Below are positions 1,412 to 43,047 of a DNA stretch of 55,670 bases, in pieces. A model generated the notes under the pieces. It made no database searches and was not told the origin of the DNA. It was given only the letters and a program-made list of their open reading frames with translations. Source of the DNA: a virus; IMG/VR virus record IMGVR_UViG_3300044858_003558, positions 1 through 55,670 of that record, one strand, 5' to 3'. The stretch's first letter is position 1; every line of letters begins with the position of its first letter. A program made the position numbers and the translations under genes.

Positions 1412-3601
1412 ATGGCAACAAGAATGCAGCAACGCAGAGGTACTGCAGCACAATGGACATCAGCAAACCCAATACTAAATGCTGGTGAAATGGGATGGGA
1501 GTCAGACACTAATAAGTTTAAAATTGGTGATGGCACTAACCACTGGGCAGATATTGACTACTTTATCGACCAATCTTCCACAGTAAACCCAGCATTTGGT
1601 TCTAGCATTACTTTTGAAGGTGCTACCGCCAATGATTATGAAACAACTCTTGCCGTAACAGATCCTACAGCAGATCGTACCATCACTCTTCCTAATGCTA
1701 CAGGAACTGTTGTTCTTGCAGACGGTAGCGGTAACGTAACGGTTTCTGGTAATTTAACAGTTCAAGGAACAACTACAACTATTGATAGTTCTACAATTGC
1801 AGTTACAAATTCATTTACTTTTGAAGGTTCTACTGCAGATGATTATGAAACAACCCTTACAGTTACAGACCCTACAGCAGACAGAACAATTACTTTGCCA
1901 AATGTAAGCGGTACAGTTATTACAACTGGTAATCTTTCTGGTACTGGTGCAACAGCAGTAGAATTAGGATATCTTGCTGGTGTTACTTCAGCAATCCAAA
2001 CACAGATTGACACTAAGGCTCCAACATCTACAACAACCACTTTAACTGGAACTCAAACTCTTACAAATAAAACTTTAACATCTCCAGTAATTAATACACC
2101 TACTGGAATTACAAAAACTGATGTTGGCCTTGCAAATGTTGATAATACAGCAGATGTTAATAAGCCAATTTCTTACGCAACTCAAACTGCACTTGATGCT
2201 AAAAGAGACAGTGCAGAAAGTGTTACGCTTGCAGCAACTAAAGTTATTGTTTTTGAAGGAACTACAAATGATGAGTATGAAACAACATTAAAGGTAGATG
2301 ATCCTACAGCAGATAGAGAAATAACTCTTCCAAATGCAACTGGTACAGTTGTTTTGCATGATGCAACACAAACATTAACAAATAAAACTATTACTTCCGC
2401 AAACAATACAATTTCAGTTACAGCATCAACAGTTTCTGATTTTACAGAGGCAGCACAAGACGCGATTGGAAATTCTGTTGGAACAGGATTATCATACAAT
2501 GATACAACTGGTGCAGTTTCAGTAGATACCAATGCAATTCAAACACGAGTTACAGATGTGTCTGATACAGAAATTGGATATCTAAATGGAGTAACTTCTG
2601 GTATTCAAACACAAATTGATGCAAAGGCTGCTTCATCACACACCCACGCACAAGCAGATATTACAAACCTTACAACAGATCTTGCTGCCAAAGCCGCACT
2701 TTCTGGTGCAACATTTACTGGTGCAGTAGTTCTTGCTGCAGATCCAGCAACAGCACTTGGAGCAGCAACAAAGCAGTATGTTGATTCACTTGCAGAAGGT
2801 TTGCACATACATGCTTCAGTAGTAGCAGCAACAACTGCTAATATCGCTCTTGCAACAGCGGTAGAAAATGGAGACACTCTTGATGGAGTTACTCTTGCCA
2901 CAGGAAACAGAATTCTTGTTAAGAATCAGTCAACAGCGTCTGAAAATGGTATTTATGTAGTAGCAGCATCAGGTGCTCCTTCAAGAGCAACAGATTTTGA
3001 TGCACCAGCAGAAATTGATGGTGGAGACTTTGTATTCGTAACTGGCGGTACTGTTAATGATAATACTGGCTGGGTACAAACAAATATAGTAGGAACAGTT
3101 GGAACTGATGCAATAGAATTCAATCAATTTGCTGGTTCAGGAACAGTTACAGCAGGAACAAATATTTCTGTTACTGGAAATCAAGTTTCTGTTATTAATA
3201 ATCCAACATTCTCAGGTGTTGTAACAGCATCAGCATCTGGTGTAGCCTTCTCAGACGGTACACAAACAAAAGCAGGAGTACCATCTATAACACCTAGAGT
3301 TGAAGCAAGTGATTCGTATAATCTATCAACTGGTGGTTTAACATTAAGAGACAGCATTATTGAAATAAATAAAGCATCTGCAACAACTCTTACAATTCCA
3401 ACAAATGCAACAACAGCCTTTCCAGTAGGAACATCTATTGATATTCTTCAAGTTGGAGCGGGACAAGTAACAGTTTCTGGAGCAGTAGGAGTAACATTAA
3501 ACTATACTCCTGGCAATAAGTTACGTGCCCAATGGTCTTCTGCAACTCTCTTTAAGCGAGCAACAGATACTTGGGTACTAATGGGCGACTTGTCAGCATA
3601 A
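1412..3601 (+). CDS. Large tail fibre with repeats
   Basis: A 729-residue fibre preceded by a strong AGGAGG site. The N-terminus (MQQRRGTAAQW...NPILNAGEMGWESDTNKFKIGDG) is the head domain seen in many phage tail proteins, where it probably anchors the fibre to the virion. Three related units of about 36 residues follow (bases about 1612-1719, 1816-1924 and 2249-2355), each of the form FEGxTxxxYETTLxVxDPTADRxITLPN, with LTNKT spacers. An ATKQYVD motif occurs near residue 452, followed by a longer unique region (TLDGVTLATGNRILVKNQ) that recurs in fibres. The last 90 residues form a hydrophobic beta-type end domain. Role: host recognition or adsorption, inferred from family resemblance. There are no catalytic motifs. 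Confidence 0.8.
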   Translation: MATRMQQRRGTAAQWTSANPILNAGEMGWESDTNKFKIGDGTNHWADIDYFIDQSSTVNPAFGSSITFEGATANDYETTLAVTDPTADRTITLPNATGTVVLADGSGNVTVSGNLTVQGTTTTIDSSTIAVTNSFTFEGSTADDYETTLTVTDPTADRTITLPNVSGTVITTGNLSGTGATAVELGYLAGVTSAIQTQIDTKAPTSTTTTLTGTQTLTNKTLTSPVINTPTGITKTDVGLANVDNTADVNKPISYATQTALDAKRDSAESVTLAATKVIVFEGTTNDEYETTLKVDDPTADREITLPNATGTVVLHDATQTLTNKTITSANNTISVTASTVSDFTEAAQDAIGNSVGTGLSYNDTTGAVSVDTNAIQTRVTDVSDTEIGYLNGVTSGIQTQIDAKAASSHTHAQADITNLTTDLAAKAALSGATFTGAVVLAADPATALGAATKQYVDSLAEGLHIHASVVAATTANIALATAVENGDTLDGVTLATGNRILVKNQSTASENGIYVVAASGAPSRATDFDAPAEIDGGDFVFVTGGTVNDNTGWVQTNIVGTVGTDAIEFNQFAGSGTVTAGTNISVTGNQVSVINNPTFSGVVTASASGVAFSDGTQTKAGVPSITPRVEASDSYNLSTGGLTLRDSIIEINKASATTLTIPTNATTAFPVGTSIDILQVGAGQVTVSGAVGVTLNYTPGNKLRAQWSSATLFKRATDTWVLMGDLSA

Positions 3602-3633: not shown

Positions 3634-4890
3634 ATGGCAACTAGAGGTAAAGGAATTAGATCATCCGCACAGGATAATTTTATTGCACCTGATGCACCAA
3701 CAATTGGAGCAGCAACAAACGTAGGAACAGGAAGAGCCTTTAACAATGGTTCAGCAACAGTTGCCTTTACTGCTCCTACAACAGGAAATACTGTTGGAAT
3801 TACTTCTTATACTGCCACATCTTCTCCAGGAGGATTTACTGGATCATCAGCATCGTCTCCAATAACTGTAACAGGATTGCAATCAAACACAGCATATACT
3901 TTTACAGTTACTGCAACAAATTCTTTTGGAACATCTGCAGCATCTAGCGCTTCTTCATCAATAACTGCCACTACAGTTCCAGCAACTCCAGCAGCACCAA
4001 CAGTTGCTTCTGTATTAAACACAGCAACAGATGTTGTAACTTGGACTGCCCCAGCAACTGGAGGAAGTACAATTACAGGATATACTTGGACATCTTCAGA
4101 TTCAAAAACTGGTACTACAAACGGATCAACAACATCTGCAAACGTTGCCCAAGAAGCAAACACATCACAAACATATAATGTTTATGCAACAAATGCAAAT
4201 GGAAATTCATCTACATCTTCAAACTCTGCTTTATTTACATCATTTAGTTTTGTTCCATTTGGTTTTGTTCCATTTGGTTTTACACCGTTCTCACCGTTCT
4301 CACCGTTCTCACCGTTCTCACCGTTTGCACCGTTTGCACCGTTTGCACCGTTTGCACCGTTTGCACCGTTCTCACCATTTAGCCCTTTCAATCCAGGATT
4401 TTCTGAATACTCAGTTTCAAGCAGTACTGGAATTATGACAATTAATGGAAGAAAAGATGCAAAAGATATTGCTGTAGGAGATGTTTTAATTTCAATGGAA
4501 ATTAATGATGAAGCAGTTAATGATCCAAATTTTGACTGGATTGCTTGGAGTCAAGAGGGACTTGCTTTAAATGAAACTAATATAAGAACAACAACTGTTA
4601 TTGGTGTAAGTGCCTATAATACATCACAACTATATTTACTTAATGGAGATCTTTATAGTGAGTCTCATTATATTTTAACTAAAAAAGACAATGTTTCTAA
4701 ATTTATTAGAGTTGATCAAATAGATAACTCATATATGGTATATTCTTATTCTGAATTAGGATTTATTAATATTGAATCCTTAGAGGTTGTTGAATATGAA
4801 GATACGGTGTATTCAATTAACTGTGAGCCATATGATAACTTCTTTACTGAAAATATGCTGGTATTTGATGCCAGAGACCAACAATCATAA
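3634..4890 (+). CDS. Fn3-like tail protein with Pro-Phe repeat and C-terminal Hint domain
   Basis: A 418-residue mosaic. Residues about 20-115 and 120-200 look like two fibronectin type III-like domains (APTIGAAT...SYTATSSPGG...GLQSNTAYTFTVTATN). Residues about 205-250 are a low-complexity run of Pro-Phe-Ser and Pro-Phe-Ala triplets. The final 150 or so residues look like a Hint (hedgehog/intein) fold: STGIMTINGRKDAKDIAVGDVL at the front, a SESHYIL segment with the block-B-type His, and VYSINCEPYDNFFTENMLVFD at the back, matching the usual VY.I....NFF..N.LV ending. The expected Cys nucleophile appears replaced by Ser, and the usual C-terminal His-Asn is absent, so full splicing is unlikely; N-terminal self-cleavage or ester formation is possible. 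RBS AAGGAG is present. Probably a virion surface protein. Confidence 0.7.
   Translation: MATRGKGIRSSAQDNFIAPDAPTIGAATNVGTGRAFNNGSATVAFTAPTTGNTVGITSYTATSSPGGFTGSSASSPITVTGLQSNTAYTFTVTATNSFGTSAASSASSSITATTVPATPAAPTVASVLNTATDVVTWTAPATGGSTITGYTWTSSDSKTGTTNGSTTSANVAQEANTSQTYNVYATNANGNSSTSSNSALFTSFSFVPFGFVPFGFTPFSPFSPFSPFSPFAPFAPFAPFAPFAPFSPFSPFNPGFSEYSVSSSTGIMTINGRKDAKDIAVGDVLISMEINDEAVNDPNFDWIAWSQEGLALNETNIRTTTVIGVSAYNTSQLYLLNGDLYSESHYILTKKDNVSKFIRVDQIDNSYMVYSYSELGFINIESLEVVEYEDTVYSINCEPYDNFFTENMLVFDARDQQS
4285..4383 (+). repeat. Tandem 9-base repeat encoding Pro-Phe-Ser/Ala
   Basis: Eleven consecutive 9-base units: four CCGTTCTCA, five CCGTTTGCA, one CCGTTCTCA and one diverged CCATTTAGC. It is preceded by two longer units encoding VPFGF. 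All units keep the frame, so slippage would lengthen or shorten the linker in the host protein by whole triplets of residues. Confidence 0.9.
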
Positions 4891-4934: not shown

Positions 4935-5681
4935 ATGTTAAATAAATTATTGAAGTTATTAAATAAAGATCCAATTATTACATTTAACTTGGCTTATCCT
5001 AAAATGCTAAATGTATTTCCTAAACCAGTTCCAGCAGTAGCAGATATTCCAGAATGGTATAAAAAACAACCAGGATATTATAATAATGATAGAAGTGTTG
5101 TTGATGGAGTAATGCAGTTAACTGTAAAAAAATGTCAAGCAGTTTTTGATGGAATGAGCAGTGGATATTTTTTATTAGCACCAGTAGATATTTATATTGA
5201 CACAACAGAAGGAAAAACCATTGTTGATATTCCTCAAACATTTAAAAAACTGTCAGAGCCTTTAACTGGATTTCATTCAACACAACAAATATCAGAATAT
5301 CCTTTAGATAAAGAATTATATATAGACAATATTTTAAGAATACATCCAGTATGGTTAGTTTCTACTCCAAAAGAATACAGTTGTTTATTTATAATGCCAA
5401 TGCATCATAATTTACCAATTCATGCTGTTCCAGCAGTTGTTGATAGTGATAATTTTTTGGTAGATGGCCTATTGTCTTATTTTGTTAAAAAAAATTATAA
5501 AGGAACAATTAAACAAGGTACTCCTCTTATTCAGGTAATTCCTTTCAAAAGAGAAAAGTGGTCTTCAATAATTAATGAGCATTTTGATAAAAAAATTGCA
5601 ACAGAACAAAAAAATAACATACGATCTGTTTTTGAAAATGGATATCGTAAAAAACTTTGGGTAAAAAAAGAATACAAATAG
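4935..5681 (+). CDS. Conserved phage protein (DUF6065-like), function unknown
   Basis: A 248-residue protein. Landmarks are PKPVPAVADIPEWYKKQPGYY near the N-terminus, TVKKCQAVFDGMSSGYFL, a central IHPVWLVSTPKEYSCLFIMP and a C-terminal GTPLIQVIPFKREKW. I recall this set from a family spread through T4-like cyanophages and other marine phages (resembling DUF6065); its function is unknown. There is no transmembrane segment or catalytic motif I can name. It starts a new transcription unit behind a leaderless promoter and is followed by a 2OG oxygenase and a ribonucleotide reductase, so it may belong with that non-structural island rather than with the fibres upstream. Confidence 0.6.
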   Translation: MLNKLLKLLNKDPIITFNLAYPKMLNVFPKPVPAVADIPEWYKKQPGYYNNDRSVVDGVMQLTVKKCQAVFDGMSSGYFLLAPVDIYIDTTEGKTIVDIPQTFKKLSEPLTGFHSTQQISEYPLDKELYIDNILRIHPVWLVSTPKEYSCLFIMPMHHNLPIHAVPAVVDSDNFLVDGLLSYFVKKNYKGTIKQGTPLIQVIPFKREKWSSIINEHFDKKIATEQKNNIRSVFENGYRKKLWVKKEYK

Positions 5682-5707: not shown

Positions 5708-6319
5708 ATGAAAAAGCCACACAAATTTTTTGAAAAATATTTAGATAATGATCTAGAAAAACTTTCAAAAGAATTACAGATTAGATATGACTTTATTGAT
5801 AAAAATAAAAACATAACTCCCAATGATATTTGGAAAGCATCTAATAGTGTTTCTACAATAAAATGGAGAGAATATAATGTTTTTCAATTTCATATTGATG
5901 AAATTTATAATTTATATAGTGCAGTATCAGATTTGACAAAAGAAGCCTGTGAATATTATGGGATTGATTTTTATGAACAACAATATATGATTCAGGGATG
6001 GTTTAATATAAATTATAATAAAAAAGGAAAATTAGATTGGCATGATCACGGTCCAAATGGTGCTCCAAATTTTCATGGATACTATTGTGTTAATGCAGAA
6101 CCATCAATAACTTATTATAAAATTGATGGAGTACACGAAGTAGAAAATATTAATAAAAACAATAGAGCAATACTTTCTGAAATGACTCATCCACATGCAA
6201 TGGCTGACTGGGATTGGGATGGTCCAAGAATTACGGTTGCATATGATTTATTGCCATTACAAGAAGTAAAAAAAGTTTTTTCTTTACATGATGAGCAACA
6301 CTGGATTCCATTGCTATAG
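5708..6319 (+). CDS. Putative 2OG-Fe(II) oxygenase
   Basis: A 203-residue protein that looks like a phage-type 2-oxoglutarate/Fe(II) dioxygenase (resembling the 2OG-FeII_Oxy_5 family). Visible iron-ligand candidates are H112 and H114 in LDWHDHG, then HGYYCVNAEPSITYY in place of the usual SGVYYV strand, H161/H163 in MTHPHAM and R174 in PRITVAYD, a likely 2-oxoglutarate contact. RBS AAGGAG precedes the ATG. Such enzymes hydroxylate proteins, nucleic acids or small molecules; the substrate here is unknown. The neighbouring Pro-rich repeat protein is a tempting protein substrate, but nothing in the sequence proves this. Confidence 0.65.
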   Translation: MKKPHKFFEKYLDNDLEKLSKELQIRYDFIDKNKNITPNDIWKASNSVSTIKWREYNVFQFHIDEIYNLYSAVSDLTKEACEYYGIDFYEQQYMIQGWFNINYNKKGKLDWHDHGPNGAPNFHGYYCVNAEPSITYYKIDGVHEVENINKNNRAILSEMTHPHAMADWDWDGPRITVAYDLLPLQEVKKVFSLHDEQHWIPLL

Positions 6320-21363: not shown

Positions 21364-21381
21364 AAAAAAGAGGTGTTGTGG

Positions 21382-24300
21382 GTGGCTGATGTACAGTCAA
21401 ATATTCAGGTCAATATTGACACGACTGCAGCCCTTGCCAACCTTAAAAATCTACAAAGGCAGTTGGCAACCTTTAATGCCTCTTTTGCAAAATCAAGTAC
21501 AACAGCAGTAAAAGCACAAGCAGAGTTTTCTAATAATCTTATAAACTCAATTAATGCTACAGGTAAGTTTGCTGCTGGAATTCAAGAAATTCAAAGTTCA
21601 ACTGAAAGATTTACTCAGTCATTAGAAAAAAATAAATTTTCAACTAGAGAATATTTTAAATATGCAGCAGGATCCACTAAAGCATTTTCTAAAATGTTTT
21701 CTTCTGAGTTTAATACAATTCAAAAAGTTGCAGAAGAAAGAGTAAAAGATTTACAAACCCAGTATATTAAAATGGGTAGAGGTGCTAATGGAGCACTTAA
21801 GGCAATTGCTGTTAGACCACTTTCTTTAGATATGGACGATCTTGCTACCAAGGTTGCAATTACATCTCAAAAACAACAAATTTTTGGTCAACTATTAAAA
21901 CAGGGATCAACTAATCTTCTTAATTTTGGTAAAAATACACAGTGGGCAGGTCGCCAACTTATGGTTGGTTTTACAATTCCACTTACTATTTTTGGTACTA
22001 AAGCAGCACAAGTATTTATGGATCTTGAACTTCAAGCAATTAGATTCAAGCGTGTCTATGGCGAAATGTTTACTACTCAAGGTGAAACAACTAAAGCATT
22101 AAATGAAATTAGAAAACTAGCAGAAGAATTTACAAAATATGGTGTAGCAGTTGTGGATACCATGAAGATGGCAGCAGATGCTGCAGCACAAGGTAAACAG
22201 GGCGCAGATTTAATGGCACAGGTTGCAGAGGCAACAAGATTAGCGGTGCTAGGACAGGTAGAGCAACAACAAGCACTTGAAACAACAATGTCTTTGCAAA
22301 ATGCTTTTGGATATTCCGCAGAACAACTTGCAGGCAAAATTAACTTTCTTAACGCAGTTGAAAACCAGACTGTTGTAGGTATTGAAGATTTAACTATTGC
22401 AATTCCAAAAGCAGGTCCAGTTGTAAAGCAACTTGGTGGAGATGTAGAAGATCTAGCATTCTTCCTAACAGCAATGAAGGAAGGTGGAATTAACGCATCA
22501 GAAGGTGCTAACGCACTTAAGTCTGGTCTTGCTTCTTTAATTAATCCATCTGAAAAAGCATCAGCCATGCTCAAAGAGATGGGTGTTGATATCCAAGGAA
22601 TTGTTCAGTCAAACAAAGGCGATATTAAAGGTACTGTTATTGGCTTTGCACAAGCATTAGATACATTAGCACCACTTGAAAGAGCAAGAGCAATTGAACA
22701 GTTATTTGGAAAGTTCCAATTTGCACGTTTATCTACATTGTTTCAAAACGTAACAAAAGATGGTAATCAGGCAGCAAGAACTTTAGAATTAACAACAAAG
22801 TCTGTAGAAGAACTTGCTATTATGTCTGAACGAGAATTGGGCGCAGTAGAAGATGCAACTGGTACAAAGTTTAAGAAATCAATGGAAGATCTTAAGGTTG
22901 CGATTGCTCCAGTTGGAGAACAGTTTTTAAAAGCAGTTACTCCAATTGCAGAATTTGTTGGTAAAGTTTTAGAAAAATTTAATGGACTAAGTGATGGAGT
23001 AAAAGGCGGTATATCCAAACTTGTATTAATTGTAGGAGCGATTGGTCCAGTAGTCCTTATGACCTTTGGTTTGCTCGCTAATGGACTTGCAAACATTATT
23101 AAACTTTTTGGAGCAGTGCGTAATGGATTTTTAGGTTTAGGGAAAAACTCACAATTTTTAGGAAATCAAACAAATTATTTAACAACAGAGCAACAAGAGG
23201 CAGCAACAATCGCAGCATCATTAGATCAAGCACATTCTAAATTAATTCAAACATTTACTCTTGAACGTAACTCTATTGCATTACTTGCAGAGGCATATGG
23301 ACAGGCTGCATTAGCAGCAACTAGATTAAAAATGTCAAATCCAGGTTATTTTAGTGCAGGTGGTCCAAAACCAAAGGGATATGCAGAAGGTGTTGTATCT
23401 GTTCCTGGTCCAAAGGGTGCTGGAGATGTTGTTCCTGCAATGCTTTCTCCAGGAGAGGCAATTATTCCTGCAGATCAAAACAAAAAATATGCTCCTTTAA
23501 TTCAGGGAATTATTGCAGATAATATTCCAGGATTTGCAGGAGGAAGTTCTGGAGTTGCAAGCCATCTTGAGGGATTAACACCAGCACAACTTCCTGCGAC
23601 ATTAGCAGATCCAGTATTACAAAAAGTATTAAGCCTAATGCCAGACGTAAAAGTTGGTCTACGTGTGTTATCTACAACTACAGACGGATTGGTAACAATT
23701 GCAAAACCTTTAATTATAAGTTTAAAAGATTTAGCAACAGAATTAAGTCAAAATAATATTGAAAGTTTAACGGCAGTAGGAACAGATAGATTTTCTGGAA
23801 CAACTACTCCTGGATCTAGCGAAAGAAACTCAATGCTAAATGCTGCTGGAATTGCAGGCGAACCAAAAACATATGAAGAACTTGTTGCAGCATCAGCAAA
23901 GGCTAAAGAATATGTTAGTTCAGGCAAAGATATAGATAAGAGAAAAGAAGCCGCTGCATTAGTTTCTGAACAAGTTAATATTGAAAAACAAATGCTTGGA
24001 TTAACTGACAAACAAAGAATACAAGCAGAAATAGATTATTCAAGAGATAAGCATGCAGCAGCAATAGAAGATGCATTAATTAAAAGTAGAGTATCTGCAG
24101 GCAAAGCCTCAGTTATGGCAAGAGATCAAATTCTTGAGGCAGAAAAAGCAGTACAGCCATTATTACTACAGGCAAAGTCAGAAAAAGAAAAACAAGTTAT
24201 ATTAGAAAAAGCACATACTGCTGCATTATTAAAACATTCTACAATGTTTGCTGGATATGATGAATCAAAAACAAGTACTGAAGTATTTAATAAAACACAG

Positions 24301-27300
24301 TTAAAGATGGTCTTAAGAGATATTCCGAGAAGCCAATTACAATATGGAACTCCGTATGGGGATGACGAGATTGTGCCAGAAGATGCTGCAAAATTTAATG
24401 GTAGAGCATTTAAAGGGTTATCAGGAAGAAGATTATCAAGAAATCAAAGTGCAATTGTTGACGCAAACATTAATGCAGAATACAAACAAGATAAAGCAGA
24501 AACTTATAAAATCTTAAAAGCATCATATACGGTTGGATCTCAAGCAGCACGAGGAGCAATTGATGGATTTAAAGATACCGCAGAAATTAAATCGCCATCT
24601 AGAATTATGTATATTGCTGGAGCAGAATTAGCAAAAGGTGCTATTAAAGGTTTTAAAGATGCTGCTGCAAAACTAACAAGAAGTGGTGCTGCTGGCGAAT
24701 TGGTGCCAACAGAAAAAACAAAACAACCTAAATATAAAAGAGATGGCCTAAAAATAGTTCCAGTTGGAACTACTGCTCCTAATGTTGTGGATGAAAAAGA
24801 TGGACAACTTAGAGATGCTGAAAGACAAAAAAGAAAAATAATGCTTGCTAGAACAAACGGGGTATTATTTGGAATGTCGTCACTATCCTCTGTTCTTGGA
24901 ATGATGGGTAATGGAATTGCACAAAAGGCTGCCCCATTTATGGTTGCAATGAATGTTGCTACTATGGCAATGCAAGTGATTCAAGGACCTTGGAGTGCTC
25001 TTGCTGTTGGTGCTATTGCATTAGTTGCTGGATTTTATTATCTACTAGAAAAAAATAAACAACAGGCAAAAGCACAATCACAATATATAGAAACTATGTC
25101 TGCAACGACTGAAAAGATGAAATCAATTGGGAAATTAACTGGCAACATTGGTGCTTCTGAATTAATGGATAAACGAAGAAGTATGGGTACATTAGATAAA
25201 TATCTAACTGGCTTTGATCGAAAAGGTCAACAGTTTGGAACATCAATGATGGAGTCTGACATTGGAAAACAAATATATGAAAATTTTACTGTTGCACTTT
25301 CTTCAGATAGAGGAGGAGCAGTTAAACAATTTGGTTTACAACTAGGCTCTTATGTTGCAGATGGAGTTATGAGTTTAGAACAAGCAGAAAGTTTTGCAAG
25401 ATCTATAGGTATTTCTCTTAATGACATGACAGTTTCTTCTCAAATTGTAGGAGAACTAAGAGAACTGCTTGGCCCAAATGGAGAAAATTTATTAGAAACA
25501 CCATTACTATTAAGAACAAGAATTATTGAAGAAAATTTAGATATTGGCAAAAATTCTTTAAAAGGATTTGAAGAGTCTATAAGTAAGTTAGGTATTGCAG
25601 GTAAAACATGGAGTGGACTTAAATCCATCTTTACAGAAACAGAAGTAGAAAGATATGCAGCACAAGTAGCAGCAGTAAATGTACAAAATATTGAGGCAGT
25701 TCAGGCACAAGTAGATGCACAAAATAACCTATATAGTAAAAAAATACAAGAATTAAAAAAACAAAAAGAATTAACAAAAGACAAAGAAAAACAAGCAGCA
25801 CTTGATGAACAAATTTCAGCATTAACTACAAAACAAAAAACAGAAACTTCTCAATTAAGAAAAGGTATTGGAAAAGTTTTAGACGAACAGATGAAAGCAT
25901 ATGAACTTGCTAATGTAAATAATGTTAAATTAGGCACAGAAGTGCCATTTTTTGAATCATTAAAAGAGCAAGTTAGACAAAAATATAAAGATACTAATGC
26001 TGCAGGAGCAGAGGCATTTTTAGCAAAATCTTCAAACTTAGTTAGCGCATTTTCAACTAATGAGACTAGAGTAAAAGCACAAAGGCTAGAGGTAATAATT
26101 GACACACTTGTTGGAGGTGGCGCACTTGAAGTAGGTGCTGCAACTAATTTACTAGAAATGTTTGGTAGTGATAAAGAAAAAATGCTTAAGACAGTATCTA
26201 CAGCATTTGAAATTAATGACGCAGGCCAAGTTTCTGAAGTTTCTAACGTATTGTATACATTATTTGGAGAAAAAAATCCTGAAATTGGCGCAAAAATATT
26301 TACTGAAATTACATCTAAAAAGGGTTCTGGAAAATTTGAAGATAGAGCAGCAACCCTTGCAGCATTATTTAAACTTCAGGGCAAAGAACTCAAAGCCTCA
26401 ATGATTATTGATGATAATGGAAGTTTAGAGAAGTTAGATCAAATAATTGAACTTTCTAATAAAATTGAAAATTTACCAGACCCAATTGAAAAAAATGCCA
26501 TAATGAATATTTTAACAGAAGGCTTAGATATCCAGGCTGGAGAACAAAAAGAATTAATGGCTTTTTGGGACTATATAAGTAAGTTACCAAAAGAACAACA
26601 AAAAACTGCTATTCAGTCATTCATTCAAATTTATAAAACAATAACGCCAGAAGAAGAGAAAGCAGCAGAAGATGCTGCAATTGCAAAGGCTGGAGGAAGT
26701 ATACTTCCAGAATCTGTTCAACAAAAAATTAGAGGCGATGTTGGCAAGGTTGCAACAACTGTTGGTCAAGTAAAGCCTATATATGGTAAGACTGGCATTC
26801 TTCCAAAACCAAGCGGTAGTACACCACCACCAAAGAAAAAAGGCGATGGAAGAGATACAACATTTGATGATATGAATAAAAAATTAAAACTTTTTCAGCA
26901 AGCATCAGTTAATTCATTAAAGGGATTTAAAGAACTAAAAAGAGTTATGGATTTAGGTGGCAAAAAAGGCGGAGCCTACATGACATTTAATGGCATAACA
27001 AATCAATTGGTTGCTACCAAAAAACTTAGTACAGAATTTATAGATATGATAGAGGGCTTAAGTCCAGAAGAAATACAAAAGAAGTTTGGTAAATTTGGTT
27101 TAGAAATTGAAAAAGGTGTTGTTAAGTTTAAAAATGGTATTAAAGCAGGTGCTGAACAGATTAATAAAGCACTTGCCTCAATTGCTGCAGGAGAAATAGT
27201 TGCTAACAATGCAAAAGAAATGCAAAAACTAGAAAATAGAACTGCTGCAGTAAATAAACTTAGGAAACAAGGCATTGATTATGCTACAGCAATGGCTATT

Positions 27301-29841
27301 ACAGAAAGTGACTCAATTGCTCTTGAAATTAGAAATGGCAGACTAAAGGGTAAAGCGCTTGAGGAATTGGTTGAATCACAACAAAAGCGTAACGATCTTG
27401 AAGAATATTATAATAAAGTTGTATTGACTAAACAACAAGATGCAATTGTAAGTCAACAAACGGCAAATGAACAAATGTTGGAATTTCTTGAATTACAAAA
27501 TGCAATTGCAGAAAATCAATTTATTGTACAAAAAACAGAAATAGAAATTGCTGCTAAAAGAAATGGTTATGCATTAGAACTTATAAACTATGAAGAAGAA
27601 CTTGCCAATAAAGTTTATGATAAACAAATTCAAGCATTAGATGAAATTGTAAAACGCAATGAAGAGATTAATCGCTTGCAAGAAGGAAGATTTAGCATTG
27701 CTGAAGCGCTTGCTCGTGGAGATATGGCTGCTGCTGCAAGAGCAATTCAGTCAGTAAGACAACAAGAAATTCAGGCACAACTTGAAGCAAAACGAAAGAG
27801 TATTGAAGAGGCAAGAAAGAAAACTCTTGAAAGTATCACTGCTGATGGTAAAACAAGAAAACAAATTGAAGAAGAAAATGCTAAGAGTGCTGCAGACCTT
27901 GCTAAAATTAATTTAGATATTGTTAAAAAACAAATTGCATATGCTCAAGAGTTTACAAAAGCACTTAAAAGAACTCCAGAAGAACTTAAGGCGTATAACG
28001 ATATTGCTACAAAAATTCAAGAAATTGGTGGATTTAAACTTGACAGCCAAAGTCTACTATCAGCAATTAAAGATGCCGTTGCTGGAAAACCTCAAGCACT
28101 TTTGTCATCTGTAGCAGGTGTTATTAATGAACGAATAAAAGATTTATTTGGTGCTAAAGTAGCAGGCGTTGCAATGAACTATGATGAAAATGGTAATCCA
28201 ATAGTAAAGCCTTCTGGAAACGAAACAGATCTAACACCAATAGGAATAAATACGACTGCTACAACTGATAATACCGCAGCATTAAAAACATTAACAGAAA
28301 AAATTACAGTAGGATCTATATCTGCTAAATCTGAACAAAGCGACAGCACATCAGAGTCTGGTGCTATTGCAGATGACTGGATGTTTAATAGAGGACTTGG
28401 ATTTAATTTTACCCCAGTAAGTTCTTCATCTAAACCTTCTAAAAAGAAAACATCTAAAAAGAAAGCGTCTAATTCTTCAAAAATTACAGATGGTAAAAAA
28501 CCTACTACAAAAAAACCTACTACAAAAAAACCTACTACAAAAAAACCAGAAACTGTAAGACAAGGAGAAAAAAAGGTTGTAACTACGCCAACAGGAATAA
28601 ATGTAAGAAACGGAGATACAACAAAACCAACAACGGTAAGTGGATCAGGTATTGATATTAACGTAAGGCCATCTTCTGATGTTGTAAGGGAAACAGTTGC
28701 TTGGGTAGAACGTCAAGAACAATTAGCAGAAGAACAAAGACAAAGAAATATTGATCAACTTACTGCTTCTAAAAATGCTGAACGATCTTCAGCAAACGCA
28801 TCTGATGCAGTTGGTAGGATGAGTCCTCTGGTAGCAGAAATGATGGGTATTTATTCAAGTACAATGCAATTCCTTGGAAATAATGCAAGGGCTGAAGCCA
28901 AAAAAGAAGATGTAGCAGATGTACAAAGAATATTAAATGAAAAAGCAGCCTCTAATGCTAGAGAAGAACAAATAAAAGATAAGGCTGCTCTTACTGTTCC
29001 AGAAGCAATAGAACAAGCAAAACGGAACGCAATTGCAGAGCCAAAAGCCATAGAAGCAAGAGACAATGCAATAGCAGATAAAAAATCTTTAACGGTACCA
29101 CAAGCAATTGCTGCAGCAAATGACGCAGGAAGACTGGCGGATAGAGTAGCATCAACAGCAATTATTGCAAAAAAGGTAGCAGACGCAAATAATGAAAGTA
29201 GAATAAATGATAAAAAGTTAAGCAATACAATGTTTGAAATATATACTGGAGTTGCAGCACAGCAAGCAACGCTAAATAGAGATGCACAAGCAGCAGATAA
29301 AAAGTTTTCAAGTATATCTATTGCTTCTCAAATTAATAAACCAAGCATTAGAGCAATAGAGGGAGCAGGGGTATCTAACCCAACGCTAAATAGAGATGCA
29401 CAAGCAGCAGATAAAAAAGCAGAGTCTGCAAAAGCAACTGCCAAAGCAAATATTACATCTCCATTAAATTTAGCAGCAAGTAGAGCAACGGGAGCATGGA
29501 CGGCAATGTATAGGTCTACGGGCGGTATGGTTCCTAAATATATGAATATGGGTGGAATTGTTCCAAAATATTTTGCAGCAGGGGGATATGGTAAAGGAAC
29601 AGACACTATTCCAGCAATGCTAACTCCTGGAGAATTTGTAATACAAAAAAGAGCAGTTGATATGCTTGGCACAGGGGTAATGAATAATATTAATAATGGA
29701 GAACTTCCAGGTAACTCAGTGTATAATTATAGTCTAAGCGTCAATGTATCAAATAGCAATGCAAATCCAAATGATATTGCAAGAACTGTTATTAATCAAA
29801 TTAAACAAATTGATTCACAAAGAATTAGGGGTAATAGATAA
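21382..29841 (+). CDS. Tape measure protein
   Basis: A 2,819-residue tape measure. GTG at 21382 was chosen because AAAAGAGG lies 8 bases upstream; GTG at 21373 and TTG at 21376 are alternatives. Residues about 190-430 are a TP901-type tape-measure domain (WAGRQLMVGFTIPLTIFG...LEDLAFFLTAMKEGGINASEGANALKSGL-like). A Gly/Pro motif (VVPAMLSPGEAIIPADQNK) appears near residue 690 and again near the C-terminus (TIPAMLTPGEFVIQKRAVD, about 2,745). Hydrophobic stretches near 1,160-1,225 may insert in the host membrane. Coiled coils lie near 1,440-1,490 and 2,130-2,175. A PTTKK repeat and a duplicated NRDAQAADKK unit lie in the C-terminal quarter. No peptidase or lysozyme motif is evident. It sets tail length, and by the usual 0.15 nm per residue predicts a tail of about 420 nm. 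Confidence 0.9.
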   Translation: MADVQSNIQVNIDTTAALANLKNLQRQLATFNASFAKSSTTAVKAQAEFSNNLINSINATGKFAAGIQEIQSSTERFTQSLEKNKFSTREYFKYAAGSTKAFSKMFSSEFNTIQKVAEERVKDLQTQYIKMGRGANGALKAIAVRPLSLDMDDLATKVAITSQKQQIFGQLLKQGSTNLLNFGKNTQWAGRQLMVGFTIPLTIFGTKAAQVFMDLELQAIRFKRVYGEMFTTQGETTKALNEIRKLAEEFTKYGVAVVDTMKMAADAAAQGKQGADLMAQVAEATRLAVLGQVEQQQALETTMSLQNAFGYSAEQLAGKINFLNAVENQTVVGIEDLTIAIPKAGPVVKQLGGDVEDLAFFLTAMKEGGINASEGANALKSGLASLINPSEKASAMLKEMGVDIQGIVQSNKGDIKGTVIGFAQALDTLAPLERARAIEQLFGKFQFARLSTLFQNVTKDGNQAARTLELTTKSVEELAIMSERELGAVEDATGTKFKKSMEDLKVAIAPVGEQFLKAVTPIAEFVGKVLEKFNGLSDGVKGGISKLVLIVGAIGPVVLMTFGLLANGLANIIKLFGAVRNGFLGLGKNSQFLGNQTNYLTTEQQEAATIAASLDQAHSKLIQTFTLERNSIALLAEAYGQAALAATRLKMSNPGYFSAGGPKPKGYAEGVVSVPGPKGAGDVVPAMLSPGEAIIPADQNKKYAPLIQGIIADNIPGFAGGSSGVASHLEGLTPAQLPATLADPVLQKVLSLMPDVKVGLRVLSTTTDGLVTIAKPLIISLKDLATELSQNNIESLTAVGTDRFSGTTTPGSSERNSMLNAAGIAGEPKTYEELVAASAKAKEYVSSGKDIDKRKEAAALVSEQVNIEKQMLGLTDKQRIQAEIDYSRDKHAAAIEDALIKSRVSAGKASVMARDQILEAEKAVQPLLLQAKSEKEKQVILEKAHTAALLKHSTMFAGYDESKTSTEVFNKTQLKMVLRDIPRSQLQYGTPYGDDEIVPEDAAKFNGRAFKGLSGRRLSRNQSAIVDANINAEYKQDKAETYKILKASYTVGSQAARGAIDGFKDTAEIKSPSRIMYIAGAELAKGAIKGFKDAAAKLTRSGAAGELVPTEKTKQPKYKRDGLKIVPVGTTAPNVVDEKDGQLRDAERQKRKIMLARTNGVLFGMSSLSSVLGMMGNGIAQKAAPFMVAMNVATMAMQVIQGPWSALAVGAIALVAGFYYLLEKNKQQAKAQSQYIETMSATTEKMKSIGKLTGNIGASELMDKRRSMGTLDKYLTGFDRKGQQFGTSMMESDIGKQIYENFTVALSSDRGGAVKQFGLQLGSYVADGVMSLEQAESFARSIGISLNDMTVSSQIVGELRELLGPNGENLLETPLLLRTRIIEENLDIGKNSLKGFEESISKLGIAGKTWSGLKSIFTETEVERYAAQVAAVNVQNIEAVQAQVDAQNNLYSKKIQELKKQKELTKDKEKQAALDEQISALTTKQKTETSQLRKGIGKVLDEQMKAYELANVNNVKLGTEVPFFESLKEQVRQKYKDTNAAGAEAFLAKSSNLVSAFSTNETRVKAQRLEVIIDTLVGGGALEVGAATNLLEMFGSDKEKMLKTVSTAFEINDAGQVSEVSNVLYTLFGEKNPEIGAKIFTEITSKKGSGKFEDRAATLAALFKLQGKELKASMIIDDNGSLEKLDQIIELSNKIENLPDPIEKNAIMNILTEGLDIQAGEQKELMAFWDYISKLPKEQQKTAIQSFIQIYKTITPEEEKAAEDAAIAKAGGSILPESVQQKIRGDVGKVATTVGQVKPIYGKTGILPKPSGSTPPPKKKGDGRDTTFDDMNKKLKLFQQASVNSLKGFKELKRVMDLGGKKGGAYMTFNGITNQLVATKKLSTEFIDMIEGLSPEEIQKKFGKFGLEIEKGVVKFKNGIKAGAEQINKALASIAAGEIVANNAKEMQKLENRTAAVNKLRKQGIDYATAMAITESDSIALEIRNGRLKGKALEELVESQQKRNDLEEYYNKVVLTKQQDAIVSQQTANEQMLEFLELQNAIAENQFIVQKTEIEIAAKRNGYALELINYEEELANKVYDKQIQALDEIVKRNEEINRLQEGRFSIAEALARGDMAAAARAIQSVRQQEIQAQLEAKRKSIEEARKKTLESITADGKTRKQIEEENAKSAADLAKINLDIVKKQIAYAQEFTKALKRTPEELKAYNDIATKIQEIGGFKLDSQSLLSAIKDAVAGKPQALLSSVAGVINERIKDLFGAKVAGVAMNYDENGNPIVKPSGNETDLTPIGINTTATTDNTAALKTLTEKITVGSISAKSEQSDSTSESGAIADDWMFNRGLGFNFTPVSSSSKPSKKKTSKKKASNSSKITDGKKPTTKKPTTKKPTTKKPETVRQGEKKVVTTPTGINVRNGDTTKPTTVSGSGIDINVRPSSDVVRETVAWVERQEQLAEEQRQRNIDQLTASKNAERSSANASDAVGRMSPLVAEMMGIYSSTMQFLGNNARAEAKKEDVADVQRILNEKAASNAREEQIKDKAALTVPEAIEQAKRNAIAEPKAIEARDNAIADKKSLTVPQAIAAANDAGRLADRVASTAIIAKKVADANNESRINDKKLSNTMFEIYTGVAAQQATLNRDAQAADKKFSSISIASQINKPSIRAIEGAGVSNPTLNRDAQAADKKAESAKATAKANITSPLNLAASRATGAWTAMYRSTGGMVPKYMNMGGIVPKYFAAGGYGKGTDTIPAMLTPGEFVIQKRAVDMLGTGVMNNINNGELPGNSVYNYSLSVNVSNSNANPNDIARTVINQIKQIDSQRIRGNR
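28501..28545 (+). repeat. Three tandem 15-base repeats in tape measure gene
   Basis: Three near-identical copies of CCTACTACAAAAAAA, encoding PTTKK three times, in a Lys/Thr-rich linker of the tape measure. The frame is kept, and the A7 runs make it prone to slippage. Confidence 0.85.
29267..29303 (+). repeat. 37-base direct repeat, copy 1
   Basis: First copy of a perfect 37-base direct repeat within the tape measure gene, encoding TLNRDAQAADKK; the second copy begins 114 bases (38 codons) later. Confidence 0.9.
29381..29417 (+). repeat. 37-base direct repeat, copy 2
   Basis: Second, identical copy of the repeat that begins at 29267. Recombination between the copies would delete exactly 38 codons without breaking the frame. 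Confidence 0.9.
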
Positions 29842-41078: not shown

Positions 41079-41617
41079 TGGCAATTGAAAACGTATTTTC
41101 TAGTTTTAATAACAATTCTACAATTGTAGATGTATTTATGGAAAATCCAAAAAAGTATGGAACAGCATTAGTTTTGGCTCAGGAAATTTTAAGAGAGGAT
41201 AGCGCCCTTTCATCAAAAGATAGAGAGATTGTTGCTATGTTTACATCATCTTTGAATGGATGTAAATACTGCACTGGATCTCATCTTGTATTTGCAAAAT
41301 CTTTAAATGCAGATGAAGAAGAATTAAAAAATATTGTTGATCAAGATTATGAAAGTCACAAACTAAAAACAATTTTAGACTTGGTTAAAAAGTTAACTTT
41401 GACTCCTTCACAACTAACAAAATCTGATTATCAAAATGTTTTTGATGCTGGATTTTCTGAAGCAGAACTCAAGGATGCAATTTCAGTTTGTGCAATTTTT
41501 AATTTCTATAACAGAATCGTTGAAGGGCATGGAATTGTTCAAGAAAATTATGCTGAGTGGGAATTTGCAGCAGAACAAATTAATAAGGCTGGATACGATA
41601 GGAGATATTCGGTTTGA
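41078..41617 (+). CDS. AhpD/carboxymuconolactone decarboxylase-like protein
   Basis: A 179-residue protein resembling AhpD-type peroxidase-related enzymes. The signature is clear: E50 in KDREIVAM and C62/C65/H69 in NGCKYCTGSH, the redox dithiol and general-acid set of that family. The second half is helical (ELKDAISVCAIFNFYNRIVEGHGI). AhpD proteins reduce peroxides or pass electrons from a thiol system. The gene is locked between primase (TAATG) and a FAD halogenase (4-base TTGA overlap), which suggests the two oxidoreductases act together, perhaps by providing or protecting reducing power. The actual reaction is unknown. Confidence 0.75.
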   Translation: MAIENVFSSFNNNSTIVDVFMENPKKYGTALVLAQEILREDSALSSKDREIVAMFTSSLNGCKYCTGSHLVFAKSLNADEEELKNIVDQDYESHKLKTILDLVKKLTLTPSQLTKSDYQNVFDAGFSEAELKDAISVCAIFNFYNRIVEGHGIVQENYAEWEFAAEQINKAGYDRRYSV

Positions 41618-43047
41618 AAATAGTTGTAGTCGGAGGAGGAACATCTGGTTATATTGTTGCTCTAAAGATGCAAAAAAAATTCCCACATCATAATGTTACA
41701 GTTATTGAAAACTCTTCAATAGGCATTGTTGGTGTGGGAGAGGCAACCTCTGGAAATTTTTTACCAATGTTAAAAGAATTTGGTATTGATATTGGTACTT
41801 TTATGAAAGAGACTAATGCCACGATCAAGATGGGGTCTTTATTTTGCAACTGGAATGATGAAGATATTGATTTCTTTGTTCCATTAATATTACAAAATAA
41901 AATTTATAATGATAAGTATTTGTCTTTAATATCTACAGCCATAAAACAAGATGGTAGTTTAATAAACATAGATGAAAGTACAAAATATTCATTGCAAAAT
42001 AAAGTTCCTGTTTCTTTTAATAAAAAAAATGGATTACAAACAGCAATACATTTTGATACATTTTTATGTTCAAAGTTTTTAAAAAAAGTAGCCATTGATA
42101 TGGGAATAACAATAGTTGATGATTTAGTAGTAGGTTTTAAAACAGAGGGCGATGAAATTAATTCTATTCAATTATCAAACAGTTCTATGGATGTAGATTT
42201 TGTTTTTGATTGTTCTGGATTTAATAGAGTTATTGTTGGAAACTTTTATAAAGAAAAATGGATAAGCGCTAACAAAACCTTACCAATAAATAGTTCTATT
42301 GTTGGTCAAGTTCCAATGGGAGATTCTATTCCACCTTATAGTAAAATAACTGCACTAGACTATGGATGGACGTTTGAAATTCCAACTAGATCACGATATG
42401 GCATGGGATATAATTTTGATAGTAACTTTATTTCCGAAGAAGATGCAGTGCTAGAAATGAAAACTAAAATAAATAAAAACTGGGAACCAGCAAGATGTAT
42501 AAAGTATGATGCTGGATTTTATGAAAAGCAATTTATTGGTAACTGTTTAGCAGTAGGATTATCTGCTAGTTTTTTTGAACCACTAGAAGCAAGCGCATTA
42601 ATGAATGTTATTTCAGTTATGGAAGAGTTTGCAGATTCTTTTGAGGAATATCTTGTTGATAAAATCAATTTTAGAGATAAAATTAATAACTATATAAAAA
42701 ATCTAGAAGATGACATAATTGCTGCAATTTATATACATTACGTAACTAACAAAAAAAATAATAGTTTTTGGCAAGATTTTACTAAAAACAATAAAATGCC
42801 AGATAAGATATCAAACTTTTTAGAACAAATGAAAACAAACATTCCAGTTCCAAGTAAATCTGATTTTGTTAACAAGACTGGGTCTTACCTCAATGATTAT
42901 TTTATAAAAATATACTATGGAAATGGTATAAAAAATTATTCTGTAATTGATCAATATAATGAAAAATTATATTATCAATATATTGATATTATAAATAAAA
43001 AAGATATTCAATGGATTAAACACCAAGATATGCTAGAATTGTTATAG
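41614..43047 (+). CDS. FAD-dependent halogenase (tryptophan-halogenase family)
   Basis: A 477-residue flavoenzyme. The dinucleotide fold GGGTSG (G7, G9, G12), VGVGEAT (about 39-45), the catalytic-type Lys at K72 in ATIKMGSLFCNW and the GNCLAVGLSASFFEPLEASAL segment (FAD and halide site, E322/E325) match tryptophan halogenases. The diagnostic WxWxIP is present as GWTFEIP (W252, F254), with the second Trp replaced by Phe. Such enzymes use FADH2, oxygen and a halide to halogenate aromatic or other electron-rich compounds; phage relatives exist in cyanophages, one of which (VirX1) has been characterised. No flavin reductase is seen here. TTG start with AGGAGA 8 bases upstream. Codons are Arg-AGA-rich and AT-rich compared with the polymerase gene. 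Confidence 0.88.
   Translation: MKIVVVGGGTSGYIVALKMQKKFPHHNVTVIENSSIGIVGVGEATSGNFLPMLKEFGIDIGTFMKETNATIKMGSLFCNWNDEDIDFFVPLILQNKIYNDKYLSLISTAIKQDGSLINIDESTKYSLQNKVPVSFNKKNGLQTAIHFDTFLCSKFLKKVAIDMGITIVDDLVVGFKTEGDEINSIQLSNSSMDVDFVFDCSGFNRVIVGNFYKEKWISANKTLPINSSIVGQVPMGDSIPPYSKITALDYGWTFEIPTRSRYGMGYNFDSNFISEEDAVLEMKTKINKNWEPARCIKYDAGFYEKQFIGNCLAVGLSASFFEPLEASALMNVISVMEEFADSFEEYLVDKINFRDKINNYIKNLEDDIIAAIYIHYVTNKKNNSFWQDFTKNNKMPDKISNFLEQMKTNIPVPSKSDFVNKTGSYLNDYFIKIYYGNGIKNYSVIDQYNEKLYYQYIDIINKKDIQWIKHQDMLELL

Follow-up and report, generated by a model that had tools for sequence, protein, structure and literature searches.

A predicted Hint domain with serine at the nucleophile position ends a putative fibre protein of an uncultured aquatic phage

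The window analyzed here is the whole of a virus contig, IMGVR_UViG_3300044858_003558, which is 55,670 bases long. It belongs to a tailed phage, since genes for ribonucleotide reductase, portal and head maturation protease are found further along; this phage is uncultured and aquatic. A gene at 3634..4890, forward strand, codes for a 418 amino acid protein with an apparent Hint domain at its end, in which serine occupies the place of the nucleophile. Is this domain really a Hint domain, and what could it do in such a protein? An earlier note on this sequence called it a tail protein and spoke of a fibre. Fibre is retained as a putative name, from gene context and domain composition only.

The protein is built from several parts, all of them on the forward strand. 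The best-matching fn3 domain covers residues 37–107 (3742..3954; Pfam PF00041, E = 3e-9, in two stretches). A second, weaker fn3/PKD-like module lies at about residues 110–200, with PF19408 at 145–196 and the minor tail protein family phrog_6977 at 106–200. Then comes a low-complexity Pro-Phe linker, residues 203–258 (4240..4407), with 19 Phe and 15 Pro in 56 residues, arranged in PF/SPF/APF triplets. The Hint core has 153 residues, 260–412 (4411..4869). It begins with Ser260 (TCA, 4411..4413), the first Ser within EYSVSSSTG, so the putative scissile bond is Tyr259-Ser260. It contains a GDxL segment (residues 281–285), a block B Ser-Glu-Ser-His (SESH, residues 342–345, 4657..4668), whose His345 is B:10, and blocks F and G, VYSINCEPYDNFFTENMLV (residues 392–410, 4807..4863). 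Phe411-Asp412 (4864..4869) replaces the intein His-Asn at G:6-G:7. A six-residue tail follows (4870..4887), there is no C-extein. The three segments, the Pro-Phe linker and the missing His-Asn had all been pointed out in the earlier note and are found in this ORF. Its placing of the Hint domain at 4400-4890 was correct for the core, which is narrower (4411-4869): the last six residues are a tail.

By sequence comparison and predicted structure, residues 260–412 are a Hint domain, as had been proposed. Pfam intein_splicing, a profile of the family compared with the gp41-1 intein and the predicted fold all agree, with a similarity well beyond chance. The Pfam match has E = 7.8e-6 for the domain alone, with 26.2 bits, below the curated cut-off of 35.8 bits. 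The family profile matches the gp41-1 intein (6qaz) with E = 2.9e-4; a second profile, made without jumbo-phage sequences, gives an identical register to gp41-1 with weaker E-values. A PDB search with the single sequence gave nothing useful, matches were obtained with profiles alone. The structure prediction suggested earlier, compared with Hint and Hog folds, gave a Hint fold: From 58 sequences of the family, AlphaFold2 built a model with a mean pLDDT of 90.5 and a pTM of 0.87. Foldseek finds 53 PDB matches for this model at E ≤ 0.001, the best with E = 5.9e-8 (BIL/intein structures). The best 50 of these 53 are BIL domains, inteins or hedgehog without exception; leading matches include BIL2 6y75, CthBIL 2lwy, gp41-1 6qaz and hedgehog 1at0. 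The model has the beta-fold of the Hint (hedgehog/intein) superfamily.

Ser260 is indeed at the nucleophile position. It aligns with intein residue 1: In the profile alignment it pairs with residue 4 of the 6qaz chain, the site of gp41-1 C1, which is mutated to Ala there, and it pairs without gaps with a Cys in relatives from Erwinia and Yersinia phages. Further relatives were collected from viral contigs in two ways, with the C-terminal motif, which gave about 180 matching stretches, and with residues 276–391 only, thus without Ser260 and blocks F/G. Ser1 is found in 59/59 unique sequences from the C-terminal-motif search and earlier loci, and in 62/62 unique family sequences reached via residues 276–391 only. 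Both routes together give 83 unique relatives, all of them with Ser1, and neither route used Ser260. All four TCN codons are used at this position (TCA 52, TCT 23, TCG 4, TCC 4), and the positions flanking Ser1 vary freely. The residue before Ser1 is Tyr in 31 cases, Asp in 11, Phe in 7, Asn in 7 and Glu in 6, with others in the rest; therefore no sequence specificity would be expected at the cut.

These 83 sequences, six Cys1 jumbo-phage sequences, two fragments beginning inside the domain and L166 form an alignment of 92 rows. Besides the Cys1 group, L166 (263-1429) is the sole relative without Ser1, apparently with Ala in its place (aligned by eye). Thr265 is missing too, as is most of the motif EPYDNFF; L166 is thus a degenerate Hint. 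Such a loss of Ser1 together with neighbouring invariant residues is as expected if Ser and active site go together. The N-terminus of L166 closely resembles that of the window protein.

The block-B His is as constant as Ser1. It is present in 59/59 unique relatives found by the C-terminal motif only, a search which did not use it, and in 92/92 of the later set, which includes sequences found via residues 276–391; His345 lies inside the motif of those searches, so 59/59 is the unbiased figure. Other active-site positions have changed. Thr at B:7 assists catalysis in inteins and hedgehog; the window protein has Ser-x-x-His, not the usual Thr-x-x-His, and B:7 in the 83 relatives is Ser in 66, Thr in 12 and Val in 5. 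F:4 is Ser or Thr, replacing the usual intein Asp. The strongest conservation of the domain is found in block F/G (CEPYD..FFT): Positions C, E, P, D, F, F, T and L are at least 97% conserved in the 62 relatives found without using F/G, which confirms the CEP-D-FFT-L pattern without ascertainment by that pattern. The invariant Cys397 corresponds to F:7, usually Val in inteins, and is probably a core residue.

The C-terminal half of the reaction, on the other hand, has been lost. The absence of a terminal His-Asn, noted before in this one protein, extends to the whole Ser family (0/83). The dyad is FD in 52 relatives, YD in 10, HD in 10, KD in 4, YN in 3 and ME, MD or WN in one each, with one sequence cut off. 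Similarity to block G is retained (FFTENMLV), with Phe-Asp where His-Asn is expected. In the family, the chain ends 3–13 residues beyond the dyad, with one clade at 28; the window protein has a tail of six residues and Ala at +1. Since a C-terminal flank, a +1 nucleophile and the Asn are all missing, splicing by the Ser-family Hint is impossible, judging from these sequences. The losses are one-sided: Residues for the N-terminal reaction are retained, those for the C-terminal reaction are gone.

Among cultured phages, the relatives are distant ones: jumbo phages that infect Erwinia, Dickeya and Yersinia. A family-profile search of genome contigs gave no match, hence no bacterial homologue at that sensitivity. 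The jumbo-phage Hint (fHe-Yen9-02 WOL24679.1; pEa_SNUABM_33 gp111; PHROG 38766) is C-terminal in an annotated virion structural protein, just as the window Hint is the last domain. Both align over their full length, with 22–30% identity, and have the EPYD motif in common. The jumbo-phage domain has Cys1, Thr-x-x-His, Asp at F:4 and His-Asn, whereas the window domain has Ser1, Ser-x-x-His, Ser394 and Phe-Asp. About 10 residues follow His-Asn in the jumbo-phage proteins, and their N-terminal part consists of collagen repeats, unlike the fn3 of the window protein. The same order, collagen repeats and then a Cys1/His-Asn Hint, is seen in L037 (2996-4435), L038 and L118-L122, which are virion structural or hypothetical proteins where annotated. 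A tree of the domain splits the Ser family from the Cys1 jumbo-phage group at a fully supported branch. Within the Ser family, sequences ending in HD, YN or WN, which have a His or an Asn, lie near the base, and the largest derived group has Phe-Asp. The tree was midpoint-rooted for drawing and we infer the direction of change, which suggests that the C-terminal half-reaction was lost stepwise in the Ser family.

What may be left is the first Hint step only, since Ser1, His B:10 and the fold have been retained while Asn, the penultimate His and the C-extein have been discarded. Most likely, to judge from these residues, the Hint domain has been kept for N-terminal chemistry only. The N-terminal cleavage or ester formation suggested in the earlier note would agree with this pattern of retained and lost residues. 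We therefore favour, with moderate confidence, a Ser-type N-terminal autoprocessing Hint domain which would cut the putative fibre protein before Ser260. Ser260, activated by His345, would attack the carbonyl of Tyr259 in an N-to-O acyl shift. The resulting ester would be resolved by water or another nucleophile, the Tyr259-Ser260 bond would be broken, and the fn3-linker part would come away from the Hint part, either while the tail-region structure is being assembled or afterwards. Ser1 yields an oxygen ester, which is less reactive. This counts against autoprocessing, as do the mostly Ser residues at B:7, with Val in five, the Ser or Thr at F:4 and the fact that F/G is conserved most. Block F/G may be conserved for folding or for the binding of a partner, and not for catalysis. 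Hedgehog and BIL domains are established examples of analogous chemistry, with Cys in place of Ser (PMC9163320, PMC4031507, PMC8616854). The equivalent thioester is transferred to cholesterol in hedgehog (PMC9163320) and to Lys in Tetrahymena BIL2 (PMC8616854).

The surroundings of the domain are also characteristic. The upstream gene of the window (1412-3601) contains an Mtd N-terminal domain (Pfam), and all of the 56 loci with at least 2.5 kb of upstream sequence have an Mtd-type fibre gene on that side. The modules ahead of the Hint domain vary among relatives (fn3, PASTA), the Hint domain is always the last one. Most relatives have an aromatic-rich linker: The 60 residues before Ser1 contain on average 31% Phe/Tyr/Trp (81 sequences), with a repeat unit that differs by lineage: PF, PPFF, GAF or HYAGF. 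For example, the repeat linkers upstream of Ser1 in L100, L031, L002 and L083 are SHYAGF, GAF, PPFF and PVIIAE. Several contigs contain two Hint proteins.

A phrog_7084 gene is found downstream in 63/81 loci. In the window it lies at 4935-5681; its relatives are found in about 50 records, nearly all of them haloarchaeal tailed viruses (HF2, HRTV etc.). Its product gives a confident model with weak likeness to dUTPase/dCTP deaminase (best E = 1.1e-3), which fits its position beside ribonucleotide reductase; by this model, the protein may have a diverged version of that fold. It was considered as a partner or acceptor of the Hint domain, and we propose no such link: It looks dUTPase-like and occurs in haloarchaeal viruses, in two of which, inspected for this purpose, no Hint gene adjoins the phrog_7084 homologue. 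The ORF at 5708-6319 has an HDH...H...R-like pattern and reads like a 2-oxoglutarate/Fe(II) prolyl-hydroxylase-type enzyme; it has no match in Pfam, PDB or phage searches. ORFs of this type lie near the Hint gene in 19/54 loci, and we may speculate that the product modifies the Pro-rich linker. Elsewhere in the window, the replication half of the contig has a tryptophan-halogenase-like gene (41614-43047; phrog_2928, E = 2.8e-95). There is also a very large ORF of 2822 amino acids (21373-29841).

The domain might also have no chemistry at all. It would then be a structural cap which ends the low-complexity linker and serves for oligomerisation or virion docking, with Ser260 and His345 kept for packing or hydrogen bonding. 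We regard this as possible, if rather unlikely. In its favour, the block B Thr and the F:4 Asp are not conserved, blocks F/G are the most conserved part and the Hint domain is always last and adjoins fibre genes. Nevertheless, Ser1 and the block-B His are the classical catalytic pair, invariant amid varying flanks, and the swaps to Ala, Gly or Thr expected for a structural Ser are seen in one degenerate member only (L166). Another reading is decay: An intein or BIL domain left from an ancient insertion, no longer under selection. His-Asn has been lost, there are Cys1/His-Asn relatives in jumbo phages, and HD, YN and WN endings lie near the base of the Ser family in the midpoint-rooted tree. 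Such a remnant should not be intact and strongly conserved in 83 unique sequences over long branches, nor present in two copies in some single contigs, so we consider decay very improbable.

Autoprocessing has a special case, which only differs in the resolution of the ester. In a transfer like that of hedgehog or BUBL, the Ser260 ester would be attacked by an acceptor, which might be a glycan, the hydroxyl of a lipid or a Lys on an adjacent protein of the virion. A covalent bond would then tie the fn3-linker part to the particle or to the surface of the host. A swappable N-terminal module followed by a C-terminal Hint without C-extein is the hedgehog architecture, and the top fold match, BIL2, comes from the BUBL1 locus of Tetrahymena, where a ubiquitin-like domain is joined to Lys (PMC8616854). 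On the other hand, no acceptor-binding domain is visible, the tail has 3–13 residues with no sterol-recognition region, and the usual neighbour, phrog_7084, looks dUTPase-like, not like an acceptor, and is also found in haloarchaeal viruses. We consider this transfer unlikely. The same doubt applies to its widest form, in which the Ser-based Hint of aquatic phages would be a one-shot acyl-transfer device, the phage counterpart of hedgehog or BUBL: It would activate, as an ester, the end of a swappable module of fn3 or PASTA plus aromatic repeats and pass this module on to an acceptor, either on the virion or on the surface of the host.

Our search of the open-access literature for Hint domains in phage virion proteins found only inteins in terminase and ribonucleotide reductase genes and general reviews. 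The combination suggested by these sequences, Ser-based Hint chemistry without a splicing role in a tail-region protein, was not found described there. If the domain is active, a family of tail-region proteins, with about 180 matching stretches in viral contigs, would process itself by Ser-based Hint chemistry, a simple case of such chemistry in virion maturation. This activity would also explain the free swapping of fn3, PASTA and repeat linkers with a fixed last domain. With such an activity, the domain, about 150 residues long, C-terminal and dependent on Ser by nature, would cleave at its N-terminal side and could help to make protein esters. The Cys1/His-Asn jumbo-phage proteins are a good positive control for autoprocessing.

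Among known systems, BIL domains are close in structure: The window Hint has a fold like those of 2lwy from Clostridium thermocellum (TM by target 0.81) and BIL2 6y75 from Tetrahymena (0.77). Like the window Hint, BIL domains have no +1 nucleophile and are suited to cleavage over splicing; they have Cys1, whereas the window Hint has Ser1 and a predicted activity. BIL type A is defined by a C-terminal His-Asn without a +1 nucleophile (PMC4031507) and is ruled out by the Phe-Asp end. BIL type B cleaves without splicing and has no similarity to intein block G, while the window Hint retains this similarity and has lost the dyad. Hedgehog Hog (1at0, fold match E = 3.2e-5) shares the arrangement of an N-terminal passenger and a C-terminal Hint without C-extein. 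However, Hog has Cys1 and a sterol-recognition region; the window Hint has Ser1, Ser-x-x-His and a tail of six amino acids, with no such region; tails in the family have 3–13 residues.

The gp41-1 intein (6qaz) is the best sequence-profile match to the family, aligned from residue 1. Unlike this intein, the window Hint is not inserted in an essential gene and has no C-extein, His-Asn or +1 nucleophile. A class 1 intein is ruled out by the Phe-Asp end, the +1 Ala, the six-residue tail and the 0/83 count of His-Asn. Class 3 inteins are marked by Trp-Cys-Thr at B:12, F:4 and G:5, where the window protein has Ile347, Ser394 and Val410, which rules out this class. A class 3 mechanism using the invariant Cys397 is also rejected: Cys397 occupies F:7 instead of F:4, and there is no Trp at B:12. 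The closest predicted viral structures are three proteins of uncultured Caudovirales, A0A6J5NY54, A0A6J5NYB8 and A0A6J7WKC1 (TM by query 0.79–0.89). We found no functional description of them beyond their automatic names, "PASTA", "Fibronectin type III" and "Hint domain containing". The names of their N-terminal modules match those of the window family, to which these proteins probably belong.
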